Program-made: the position numbers and the translations under genes | Shown here: positions 46,831 to 50,616 of the stretch, one piece after another | Layout of the letters: each line of letters begins with the position of its first letter | Numbering within the stretch: the first letter of the stretch is position 1 | From: Deltaproteobacteria bacterium | GTDB taxonomy: Bacteria > Desulfobacterota > DSM-4660 > Desulfatiglandales > Desulfatiglandaceae | NCBI GenBank assembly: GCA_021737785.1 | Contig: JAIPDI010000006.1 | Span: 1 to 64,000 of the forward strand | Direction: 5' to 3' | Length of the DNA stretch: 64,000 nt | The notes under the pieces: generated by a model | Databases searched by the model: none | The model's input: the letters and a program-made list of their open reading frames with translations, nothing else | Told to the model about the DNA's origin: nothing

Positions 46831-47826
46831 CTACTTTTCCTCGCCCTGGGTGTTAAACAGCTCCGTGACTTGGACGGCCCGATTTCCGGCCACAACGCCC
46901 GGGATGCCCAACATCTTCGGAATCTTCTCAATCATGACGGCAATCGGACTTTGGGGTCCTGTATTCAGCCTGATTACATCGCCTTCCTTGAGGTTGAGAA
47001 CATCCCTCACCCGCCATGAAGATTTACCTAATTCAACAGACAGCGTTACCTCCGTATCGCTTAAGAGCTTTTGCAGTTGCATATTCCATGCATTTTCCAG
47101 TTCCGCTTCTCTGATATTCCGATAAGAAAGCTTGTCCTTGATCGGCTCCAGCAATAGGTAAGGGATGCATAGCCACAGCTGGCCTGAAAACTCATCTAAT
47201 GATACGGAAAACGCCACCGCAATAACCAGATCACTTGGGGCAACCAGACGCACGAATTGCTGTTTTGTCTCACTTTTTCCTAACGACATCCGCAGGTTCT
47301 TGACAAATTCCCACGATTTTTCAAGATCTTTGAGTGTCTCGATGGTGAACTTTCGCATCACCCGTTGTTCAATAAGGGTGAAGTCCCTCTCCTGAGAGAC
47401 CATTGATTTACCGGTCCCCCCGAACATGCAATCGATGAGAAAAAAGACGAGGTTGGGCTCAATTACCAGCAATGCGGACCCGATGAGCGGCTCCATTCGA
47501 AACGTATGGAAGCTTGAAGGGTTGGGAAGCCCCTCCAGGAAATCCCCGAATTTGACCATCTCAGTGGAGGCCAGAGTGGTGTCGATGGGGGCCCTGAAGG
47601 ATGTTGACAACGAACTGCGAAAAAAATTGGCAAATCTGTCAAACACCTCATCGAGAACATCGAATTGCTCCCGCATCATGATATTCTGAGATGTCAGGTC
47701 ATAGACCGGAATCTGCGTCGGGGAGCTTTCCGCTTCTTCTTCACTGACCTCCAGATCGACATCCCCTGCCTTCATGGAAGACAGGAGGGCATCCACTTCT
47801 TCCTGGCTCAGTATCTGGTCAGCCAT
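46831..47826 (-). CDS. fliM: Flagellar switch protein FliM
   Basis: 331 residues. The N-terminal CheY-binding peptide is LSQEEVDALLSSM. The middle domain has FVLIDCMFGGTGK-like FFLIDCMFGGTGKSM and the C-terminal SpoA domain has LSVELGKSSWRVRDVLNLKE. All C-ring parts are present in this window. Confidence 0.96.
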   Translation of the reverse strand: MADQILSQEEVDALLSSMKAGDVDLEVSEEEAESSPTQIPVYDLTSQNIMMREQFDVLDEVFDRFANFFRSSLSTSFRAPIDTTLASTEMVKFGDFLEGLPNPSSFHTFRMEPLIGSALLVIEPNLVFFLIDCMFGGTGKSMVSQERDFTLIEQRVMRKFTIETLKDLEKSWEFVKNLRMSLGKSETKQQFVRLVAPSDLVIAVAFSVSLDEFSGQLWLCIPYLLLEPIKDKLSYRNIREAELENAWNMQLQKLLSDTEVTLSVELGKSSWRVRDVLNLKEGDVIRLNTGPQSPIAVMIEKIPKMLGIPGVVAGNRAVQVTELFNTQGEEK

Positions 47827-47838
47827 CTAAATCCCCCT

Positions 47839-48303
47839 CTATTGGACCACAAACTCTTGAAAAAAAATATTCGTTATCTTACCTTCCTGCAATATTTCAT
47901 TCAATGCAACGATGAGACTGCTTCTGAGCGCATGTTTGCCCTCCACACTTTGAATCTCTTTATAGGTTTTGGTGGGAAGGATCATCAATATTCGATCGCG
48001 AATCTCAGGCACCTTTTTTTCCAGGGATACGAGCAAATCCTTATCGCTGAACTCCAGGACGATTCTTGTACTGAAGTATCGTTTTCCTCCTGGATCAGCC
48101 AGATTCACTATAAAGCTTTCCAATGGAAAATTGATCTTATTTTTGTTAATTTCCGATTTTTTTGCACTGTCTTTACTTTCTTCAGTGCCCGTATCCCTTT
48201 CAGAATCGGATCCTTTGCCCTGAAAATAGAAAAAGCCCCCGCTTCCGACGATGGCTGCTATCAGCAGTCCGCTTACCAGTATGATCAGCTTTTTTTTCGA
48301 CAT
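47839..48303 (-). CDS. fliL: Flagellar basal body-associated protein FliL
   Basis: 154 residues with one transmembrane helix (LIILVSGLLIAAIVGSGGFF), a charged linker (SDSERDTGTEESKDSAKKSE) and a periplasmic stomatin-like domain (FPLESFIVNLADPGGKRYFS, IRDRILMILPTKTYKEIQSV). FliL surrounds the stator; here it directly follows the motB gene. Confidence 0.93.
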   Translation of the reverse strand: MSKKKLIILVSGLLIAAIVGSGGFFYFQGKGSDSERDTGTEESKDSAKKSEINKNKINFPLESFIVNLADPGGKRYFSTRIVLEFSDKDLLVSLEKKVPEIRDRILMILPTKTYKEIQSVEGKHALRSSLIVALNEILQEGKITNIFFQEFVVQ

Positions 48304-48304
48304 C

Positions 48305-49015
48305 TCATCCTTCCTCGTTCGTTACCAAAACGATCTCCACCCTCCGGTTCCTGGCCCTCTGTTCCGGCGTATCATTCGGCTCGATGGGCCTCAATTCCCC
48401 GTATCCGACTGCCGACAACCGCTCGGGGGCGATATTTCCCTCTTGGATAAAGTATCTGGCGATATTTACCGCCCTTGCAGCCGATAGCTCCCAGTTTGAA
48501 TCGAATTTCTCCGTAAAGATGGGAACATTGTCCGTATGCCCTTCCACGCGTACCCGGCACCAACGGGCCTTGATAATCTTGGTCAACTCGTTCAAAACCG
48601 GAAAGGCGTCAGGGCTGATACTGGCAGAACCCGATTCAAAGAGGGCCCTCCCGTCAAGCGTCATCACCTGATCCTTTCCCCTGAATCGAACCTCCGTGCC
48701 CTCGAATGATTTGAGGGCCTCGATGTAATCCTCAATGCTTTCTTCTCCCTCGGGAATCATCTTCCCTTTGATTCTCCCCATACGTGAACCCTTGTCGCCG
48801 AATGATTCAATGACCCCCACAGGCGCTCCCTCTCCCTTGTCGAGGACGCCGAGGCCTTTCATTACAGAGAACTGAAATTGCTTGAGCTTTGCCACATCCG
48901 TGGTCGCCATGGTAAACAGAAGAACAAAAAAAACCATCAAGAGGGTCACCAGATCATTGAAGGTGGTCAGCCATCCGCTGGCGTTTCCCTCCTCTTTTAA
49001 TCGACGACGGCTCAT
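48305..49015 (-). CDS. motB: Stator protein MotB (carries the ion-binding Asp)
   Basis: 236 residues. The single transmembrane helix contains D21 in TTFNDLVTLLMVFFVLLF, the position of the essential Asp (E. coli D32). The plug/linker follows, then a C-terminal OmpA-like peptidoglycan-binding domain (VRVEGHTDNVPIFTEKFDSN, AVGYGELRPIEPNDTPEQRA, RRVEIVL). The ATG overlaps the stop of the upstream motB-like gene (ATGA). Confidence 0.93.
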   Translation of the reverse strand: MSRRRLKEEGNASGWLTTFNDLVTLLMVFFVLLFTMATTDVAKLKQFQFSVMKGLGVLDKGEGAPVGVIESFGDKGSRMGRIKGKMIPEGEESIEDYIEALKSFEGTEVRFRGKDQVMTLDGRALFESGSASISPDAFPVLNELTKIIKARWCRVRVEGHTDNVPIFTEKFDSNWELSAARAVNIARYFIQEGNIAPERLSAVGYGELRPIEPNDTPEQRARNRRVEIVLVTNEEG

Positions 49016-49776
49016 TTAGGACCATCCTCCTTGAGGGCATCGTCAATGGTCGTGTTCTCTTTATCTAATGTAAAAATAATTTCCACCCGCCTGTTTTGTG
49101 CGCGGAGTTCCGGGCTTTCATTTGAAACGATCGGTTGGAACTCTCCAAACCCTGCTGCAGAGAGCCGTTCTGCTGAGATTCCCGGGATTTCCAGAAAATA
49201 TCGCAAGACATTGACTGCACGTGCGGTAGACAATTCCCAGTTTGAAGGGAACCTGTGTGTGTGGATAGGAAGAGCATCGGTATGGCCCCGTATTTCTACG
49301 GAGTAAGACCCCTTGGATATGATGGCCCCTATCTTGTCCAAAAGGGGAAAGGCGTCTGATGAAATCTCCGCAACCCCCAGGTTAAACACGGCCTTATCCG
49401 CCAACCGGACCACAAGGCCATTGCGTAAGGAGGTAAAGGAAAGCTCTTCTGCCAATCCAAGCTCATCCACGGCACTCTGGATTTCTTGAAAAATCAAAGC
49501 CATTTCACCCTGATCAAAAGCAATATCCGGCAGGGAATGGCGGGACTGGTCTCCGGGACGGACCTTGACGCCACCTGGCATGACACTTACTGCACGCGTA
49601 AAGGACGCAACAAAGTGTTCCACCTTTGACTTTTCAATCGTCGAAAATGAGCACAGCATGATGAAAAAACAGAGCATAATGAGGATGAAGCCGGTATAGA
49701 CGACTTCCCATCCTGGTCCAGAGGCCTCCCCCGATCTCTTTCGGGTGTTTCCGGCGTCTTCTGCCATCGTCCGCAT
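49012..49776 (-). CDS. MotB-like paralogue lacking the ion-binding Asp
   Basis: About 254 residues, starting with ATG 49776 that overlaps the motA stop (TGATG). It has the MotB layout: a transmembrane helix, then an OmpA-like domain (VEIRGHTDALPIHTHRFPSN, AAGFGEFQPIVSNESPELRA, RRVEIIF). But in the helix the residue aligned with Asp is Gly: GWEVVYTGFILIMLCFF against GWLTTFNDLVTLLMVFF in the neighbour, with the same Gly-Trp to Asp/Gly spacing. Alone it should not conduct ions. It may pair with the other MotB in a heterodimer or act as a structural or regulatory subunit (inference). Confidence 0.88.
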   Translation of the reverse strand: MRTMAEDAGNTRKRSGEASGPGWEVVYTGFILIMLCFFIMLCSFSTIEKSKVEHFVASFTRAVSVMPGGVKVRPGDQSRHSLPDIAFDQGEMALIFQEIQSAVDELGLAEELSFTSLRNGLVVRLADKAVFNLGVAEISSDAFPLLDKIGAIISKGSYSVEIRGHTDALPIHTHRFPSNWELSTARAVNVLRYFLEIPGISAERLSAAGFGEFQPIVSNESPELRAQNRRVEIIFTLDKENTTIDDALKEDGPK

Positions 49777-50576
49777 CACTCACTCCCGTCGCTTTTCTCT
49801 TGCTCCGCTGGGTCTTCACCAACAGGGACCTTTGTGCTCTTGGGCAGGAAGGCCCTCAATTTCTGTTCAATAACCCGATGGTTATCGCCTGATTGGATGG
49901 ACATGATGCCCTCGAGCACAAGTTCCTTCAGAAAGATCTCCTCCTTGCTCCGCGTCTTCAATTTGGCGGCAATAGGGAGAAAAAGGAGGTTGGCCAGAAG
50001 CGTTCCATAAAATGTGGTTAGGAGGGCGACCGCCATCGGGGCGCCTATGGAACTGGGGTCTTCCATCTGCATGAGCATCTGGACCAGACCGATAATGGTT
50101 CCCAGCATGCCGACGGCCGGGGCATAAGAACCCATGCTGACAAATATTTCGGCACCCAGGGAGTGACGTTCCTCCACATAGGATATCTCGGTTCTGAGAA
50201 CATTCGCTATTGCCTGGGATTCCACCCCATCGATGGCAAGTTCCAGACCCTTCACAAAAAAGGGATCATCAATGTCCTTCAGCTTTGATTCAAATGAGAG
50301 AATCCCCTCTTTCCGGGCAAGTTTGCCGAACTCAATCATCATGTTGATAACTTTATCCGTCGACTGGGAGCGATGAAAAAAGACATTCATGACGATCTTG
50401 AACACGCCTAGGATCTGCGCAAGAGGATAACTGAGCAGTGTGGCACCCATGGTCCCCCCGATGACGATCATCAAGGAAGGTCCGTTAATGAACCAGGCCC
50501 CTGAACCGCCAAGCAGAATAGCGCTGACTACCAGCACACCGGAAAAAAGAATGCCGGCGAATGTAGCAAGATCCAA
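49776..50576 (-). CDS. motA: Stator protein MotA
   Basis: About 266 residues from TTG 50576, preceded by AAAGGAGG; a longer open frame to 50675 runs through a perfect sigma-54 promoter and is rejected. Four transmembrane helices; cytoplasmic LARKEGILSFESKL holds the torque-loop Arg and Glu; helix 3 and 4 motifs are GSYAPAVGMLGTIIGLVQML and VALLTTFYGTLLANLLFLP. The PAVGxxGT and TTFYGTL pattern resembles sodium-type PomA/MotP more than proton MotA, but selectivity cannot be settled from sequence. Confidence 0.94.
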   Translation of the reverse strand: MDLATFAGILFSGVLVVSAILLGGSGAWFINGPSLMIVIGGTMGATLLSYPLAQILGVFKIVMNVFFHRSQSTDKVINMMIEFGKLARKEGILSFESKLKDIDDPFFVKGLELAIDGVESQAIANVLRTEISYVEERHSLGAEIFVSMGSYAPAVGMLGTIIGLVQMLMQMEDPSSIGAPMAVALLTTFYGTLLANLLFLPIAAKLKTRSKEEIFLKELVLEGIMSIQSGDNHRVIEQKLRAFLPKSTKVPVGEDPAEQEKSDGSE

Positions 50577-50616
50577 CTGAATATCCTCCTTTACACGTGG
50601 ATTGCACGATACATTA

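Follow-up and report, generated by a model that had tools for sequence, protein, structure and literature searches.

A conserved MotB paralogue lacking the ion-binding Asp, encoded with an Asp-bearing MotB behind a single motA in flagellar operons of Desulfobacterota

Gene content of the stator operon

The stretch of DNA analyzed here (hereafter the window) comprises 64,000 nucleotides of contig JAIPDI010000006.1 from a Deltaproteobacteria bacterium of the sulfate-reducer type (assembly GCA_021737785.1). It contains an operon in the order motA–B'–B–fliL–fliM on the minus strand, which encodes two MotB proteins and is followed by further flagellar genes. The first MotB (B', or B1 in relatives) lacks the ion-binding Asp and the second (B, or B2 in relatives) possesses it. 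The features of the locus are listed in Table 1. Re-reading of the sequence bore out the initial annotation with respect to the open reading frames, the gene overlaps and the presence of Asp in one MotB and Gly in the other six residues after the Trp. In addition to the overlap between the two motB genes, the end of motA runs into the start codon of B' (TGATG).

Table 1 Features of the motA–motB–motB operon in the window
Feature	Position	Strand	Basis or remark
motA	49776..50591	minus	PomA/MotP-like A subunit; Pfam MotA_ExbB E 3e-30
motA alternative upstream TTG start	50675	minus	frame also open
motB1 (B', Asp-less MotB)	49012..49776	minus	Pfam MotB_plug 42 bits, OmpA 58 bits
B' start	ATG at 49776 or GTG at 49779	minus	both possible
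B' transmembrane helix	49642..49713	minus	AlphaFold2 helix 18-41 of 250-aa query; TM conservation
B' ion-site codon GGC (Gly)	49690..49692	minus	residue 30 counted from GTG; column of PomB D24
B' plug-like helix after TM	49585..49632	minus	AlphaFold2 helix 45-60, lower confidence; Pfam MotB_plug match 15-63
B' OmpA-like peptidoglycan-binding domain, GHTD and LSTAR intact	49090..49386	minus	Pfam OmpA; Foldseek; motif columns
AAGGAGGA Shine-Dalgarno 5' of B	49025..49032	minus	sequence
ATGA overlap, B' stop/B start	49012..49015	minus	sequence
motB2 (B, Asp-bearing MotB)	48305..49015	minus	Pfam MotB_plug 53 bits, OmpA 74 bits; PDB matches
B ion-site codon GAT (Asp21)	48953..48955	minus	six residues past Trp; aligned to PomB D24
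fliL	47839..48303	minus	Pfam FliL E 1e-23; directly 3' of B
fliM	46831..47826	minus	served as FliM query; recovered in conserved A-b-b-L-M order

The best PDB match of the motA product was VaPomA (8bri, E 1e-55), and the GTxxGL and LLTTxYG segments are conserved; judged by its sequence, the window MotA is a canonical PomA-type subunit. As in MotA5B2 stators, one MotA is encoded together with its MotB, the PomA-like motA lying directly upstream. Both B' and B belong to the MotB/PomB family by sequence, each combining a MotB_plug N-terminal region with an OmpA-like C-terminal domain, and all four scores were above the Pfam gathering cut-offs. Since fliL and fliM follow, genes for the hook and basal body surround the operon and most relatives share the gene order, the neighborhood assigns the stator to the flagellar type rather than to ZorAB, TolQR or ExbBD. 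A link to defence was discarded, as the PADLOC ZorB matches were confined to the OmpA domain and hence uninformative.

A single-chain AlphaFold2 model of B' (pLDDT 74) contained a transmembrane (TM) helix, a plug-like helix and an OmpA domain, the best Foldseek matches of the latter being the wall-binding domains of MotS, PomB and MotB. The peptidoglycan-binding motif (GHTD, LSxxRA) is kept in B' and in all 24 Gly-type relatives, and the peptidoglycan-contact Arg of LSxxR is changed in 21 of 31 Ser-type B1s and in the Cys-type relative. In about 20 Ser- or Cys-type B1s (L022-L026, L029, L033, L037 and others) this Arg is replaced by Met; wall binding may also be altered in these proteins, whereas the window type retains the Arg. 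It should be noted that a solved structure already exists for the periplasmic domain of one 'MotB-like' protein in the wider group (3khn, Desulfovibrio vulgaris DVU_2228).

Loss of the ion-binding site in B'

The membrane Asp of MotB/PomB is the essential ion-binding residue. When aligned to solved structures, D21 of B matched VaPomB D24 and the corresponding Asp of 6ysf, and the Gly of B', whose PDB match was MotB 6ysf itself (E 5e-36), fell in the same column as PomB D24. The possibility that a different Asp of B' occupies the essential position, raised as a refutation in the initial annotation, was thus examined by alignment and no such residue appeared. By the functional definition of a MotB/PomB, which demands a membrane-embedded ion-binding Asp, B qualifies and B' does not. 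The loss of this residue in one of two MotBs sharing a single MotA can be considered solid.

Asp occupied the ion site (position 0) in 83 of 83 second MotBs. None of the 74 Asp-less homologs had Asp or Glu between positions -4 and +15, so no substitute acid takes the place of the lost Asp, and replacement by another acid was ruled out for the TM of these proteins. The membrane helix of the window B' carries no acidic residue elsewhere either; a Glu at -5, at the cytoplasmic end, was found in just 15 of the 74 homologs. The polar residues around the site have also disappeared. Position -3 is Thr or Ser in all 75 B2s vs 8 of 74 B1s, and position +3 in 52 of 75 vs 2 of 74; B' has neither. With the Asp and both flanking polar residues absent, the entire ion-path face of the helix is lost in B'. 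The periplasmic half of the B1 helix is nearly invariant (I+4, L+5, L+6, F+8, F+9, I+10, L+12 and S+14), and the ion site of Asp-less operons is restricted to small residues (Gly, Ser, Ala, Thr or Cys).

Occurrence of tandem motB operons in the phylum

B' was searched against relatives and then against the phylum, the operons were fetched, and a scan of named genomes was added. The dominant arrangement was motA–motB–motB–fliL–fliM, with all five genes present at 63 loci. Among 75 non-redundant motA–motB–motB operons, the first MotB was Asp-less in 74 (Ser in 37, Gly in 23, Ala in 11, Thr in 2 and Cys in 1; Asp in the remaining one) and the second MotB had Asp in all 75. The spacing between B1 and B2 was -20 to +30 bp in 111 of 126 pairs. 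The suspicion that the Gly version might be a lone variant therefore fails in relatives: 22 more Gly cases occur among the 74 non-redundant operons, and repetition of the Asp-less pattern across the phylum is incompatible with chance, a sequencing error or a single strain variant.

Considering that the peptide pattern of the named-genome scan begins just past the ion site, its counts are skewed toward Asp-less forms. Because of this bias, a correcting survey keyed on MotA alone was carried out in 247 genomes of the phylum, and the genes following the best MotAs were read. In tandem operons, 36 of 37 readable first MotBs, distributed over 16 family codes, were Asp-less; the 37 include three loci from another fetch (L045, L050 and L055), and two lose the second MotB at a contig end. 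In ten genomes motA adjoins fliL with no motB between them, and five more distant MotAs have one MotB, which bears the Asp.

We also examined whether the pair is the only stator of its genome. A MotB_plug search in 27 genomes with pairs revealed exactly two proteins in 19 of them, and in 17 of these 19 they were the Asp-less/Asp pair. The single-contig genomes G030 and G093 are among the at least 17 genomes whose sole MotB_plug proteins form such a pair. A MotA_N search found one flagellar MotA in nearly all of these genomes; the extra MotA_ExbB matches were open frames of varied size, taken to be mostly of the TolQ/ExbB type. As far as these profile searches go, the Asp-less MotB in those 17 organisms is part of the only flagellar stator. 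The genome of the window has a second, very divergent motA–motB pair, which bears the Asp and lies further on in the same contig at a distance of about 24 kb, and the sole-stator argument is thus drawn from relatives. This second pair (L179:9959-11719; G000:C6 about 73959-75719) lies outside the window; its MotB has the Asp motif GLADLLML and a long proline-rich linker, and a lytic transglycosylase-like gene adjoins it. Similar weak MotB_plug matches were seen in G044, G071, G149, G214 and G290.

Selection on B' and its membrane helix

At moderate dS, dN/dS of B1 (Nei-Gojobori) ranged from 0.09 to 0.41 and in most comparisons was no higher than the corresponding B2 value; a single pair with very little divergence (dS 0.04) gave a B1 value of 0.60 and is too close to be informative. 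Judged by these ratios, purifying selection on B' is at least as strong as on B, and a pseudogene was ruled out. The entropy of the B1 TM was 1.30 vs 2.29 in the rest of the protein, and that of B2 was 0.89 vs 2.33. FliL, a single-pass protein of the same operons, showed no such constraint (2.29 in the TM vs 2.07 in the rest). A helix that serves purely as an anchor would be expected to behave like that of FliL. As the B' helix does not, it is very likely to engage a particular partner within the membrane, MotA being the obvious candidate.

Pairs with Asp in both MotBs and origin of the duplication

Some motB pairs are located away from motA, either beside der (L066, L076) or behind flgI (L177, L178). 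The site of the latter type lies between flgI and a flgN-like gene, and motA stays with fliL–fliM where checked. Both MotBs had Asp in nine of the ten relocated pairs of the pair table, as well as in L177 and L178. In the exception, L067 (G052), Asn occupies the ion site of the first MotB, and the Asp of its GHTD motif is replaced by Glu. Genome position and Asp status of motB pairs covary. Only one operon pair, L055 (G151), has Asp in both MotBs; the first MotB of its congener G126 (L045) has Ala. The TM of the Asp-bearing first MotB of L055 shares 79% identity with the TM of the second MotB in the same operon. The existence of Asp in both MotBs of some relatives means that a single-Asp stator is not obligatory.

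The TMs of Asp-bearing B1s were nearer to B2 than to Asp-less B1 (mean BLOSUM62 scores of 79-85 vs 47-56), and so was the Asn-type TM (63 to B2 vs 47 to Asp-less B1). At the DNA level, TM identity to the own B2 was 0.61-0.74 for Asp-bearing B1s, 0.46-0.51 for Asp-less pairs and 0.57 for the Asn-type L067. These similarities suggest that the TM of Asp-bearing B1s was replaced by gene conversion or that the Asp was retained; no sharp conversion tract was found in these genes, so gene conversion is just suggestive.

In a full-length tree, a branch with a support of 99 set apart 74 B1s from operons, every relocated B1 and four first MotBs cut by contig ends, a grouping that leans on the TM itself. 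In a periplasm-only tree, window-type B1s were placed next to their own B2s (SH-aLRT 90). AU tests rejected neither one B1 clade (p 0.42) nor a clade of window-type B1 and B2 (p 0.55). In the MotA tree, the MotAs of window-type tandems formed a clade (support 100) within a larger, mostly tandem cluster. A single B1 clade could not be upheld as proven, since its full-length support depends on the TM, and the periplasm-only tree and AU tests are undecided. From these trees, one old duplication with local homogenization and two duplications with convergent loss are both possible. It is conceivable, though doubtful, that Asp-less tandems arose twice, once as the window W-x-x-x-Y-T-G-F type and once as a V-S-L-F type, maybe with no shared mechanism. 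The periplasm-only placement and the AU result speak for two origins; the position of nearly all B1s beyond one branch of the full-length tree, TM-dependent as it is, and the clustering of most tandem-operon MotAs speak against them. This question concerns origin and is compatible with any reading of function.

Possible roles of the Asp-less subunit

The best explanation, to which we assign a probability of slightly below one half (about 0.48), is that B' pairs with B as the heterodimeric axle of a single MotA pentamer (A5-B-B'), which would leave the stator one ion site where two are usual. The presence of two translationally coupled motBs behind one motA supports such an arrangement, and the constraint on the TM, the restriction to small residues at the site, the co-retention of both motBs and the single MotA lead us to infer that B' is in the ring. 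In A5-B-B', B would bear the sole ion-binding Asp, and B' would contribute the second helix, the plug and the wall-anchoring domain, its ion-path face now being made of small and hydrophobic residues. The complex would resemble a turnstile with one powered piston, using about 5 ions per turn rather than 10 and moving either in 72-degree steps or in 36-degree steps that are alternately powered and passive; the stoichiometry and gearing, like the heterodimer, are our interpretation of the operon. More tentatively, a large part of Desulfobacterota/Thermodesulfobacteriota may swim with an obligately asymmetric MotA5-B-B' in which one axle helix binds ions.

The initial annotation had proposed either an A5-B-B' stator or a regulatory B'. 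The former fits the single MotA, the sole stator of many genomes, the constrained TM and the co-retention, and the latter stays a rival, although an unlikely one. In that case B' would be a regulatory or decoy subunit, B'2 or B-B' rings would be non-conducting or weak, and the B:B' ratio would set the number of powered stators as a brake or gear. A strong Shine-Dalgarno sequence before B and coupling through B' would permit such ratio control, and window-clade B's keep the TM helix and peptidoglycan motifs; however, a dispensable subunit should sometimes vanish, and none of the operons seen in this MotA clade had just one of the two MotBs (ascertainment being imperfect). It is rather improbable that B' works outside MotA5 as a wall-anchored scaffold, that is, a helper of the MotY or FliL type that positions or activates an A5B2 stator made with B. 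Most Ser-type relatives have lost the Trp at the helix start, which together with their frequent change of the contact Arg indicates that the role of Ser-type B1s has drifted from that of a standard MotB. On the other hand, TM conservation in B' far exceeds that in FliL, the plug-like helix is kept, and the helices of Asp-bearing B1s resemble B2, implying that a B1 helix is able to function in the same position. A decaying or neutral duplicate would account for the missing essential residue but is scarcely credible given dN/dS well below 1 and intact genes with near-invariant TM positions in 74 diverse operons.

Comparison with known stator systems

A 5:2 rotary motor poses the questions of how many ions are used per step and whether both axle helices need a charge. 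A conserved pair with one charged chain, which several closed or nearly complete genomes have as their sole stator, offers a ready-made test of the symmetric model, in which two equal charged B chains give 10 ions per turn and 36-degree steps (PMC9389320). If A5-B-B' is correct, it would represent a naturally occurring 'half-cylinder' rotary motor whose ion-to-rotation ratio differs from that of every flagellar motor studied so far, and could explain how flagella are driven in anaerobes with very little energy to spend. The pair also shows that the annotation 'MotB' does not denote one functional thing across the phylum. Under the terms searched for, a 2025 survey of MotAB evolution (PMC12505986) contained no mention of a duplicated or Asp-less MotB, and a literature search, with subscription papers mostly outside it, turned up the Aquifex and AglRQS systems but no description of a MotB partner in which loss of the Asp is conserved.

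Among known systems, the MotA5MotB2/PomA5PomB2 stators (6ysf, 8bri, 8brd) share with the window a PomA-like MotA, a B with the expected TM residues and, in B', the MotB TM, plug-like and OmpA regions; the difference is that the two B subunits here are unlike, one being devoid of the ion-binding Asp and the surrounding polar residues. FliL- and MotY-type helpers are likewise membrane- or wall-linked and found beside stators, FliL being encoded in the same operon as B', whereas B' is a true MotB homolog with a conserved MotB-type TM and the FliL TM is not conserved. In the Myxococcus AglR/AglQ/AglS gliding motor, one MotA homolog is also combined with two different B homologs, but AglQ and AglS both bear the Asp and the motor is not flagellar; whether they form hetero- or homodimers is still undetermined (PMC9389320). 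Aquifex aeolicus, whose stator is of the Na+ type, also has an operon of one motA followed by two motBs. Their TM/N-terminal regions are 97% identical with one difference (Gly20/Ser20), and either motB TM powers rotation in Escherichia coli chimeras (PMC4525482). In contrast to these near-identical helices, the TMs of B' and B are 21% identical over 24 residues, and only that of B has the Asp.
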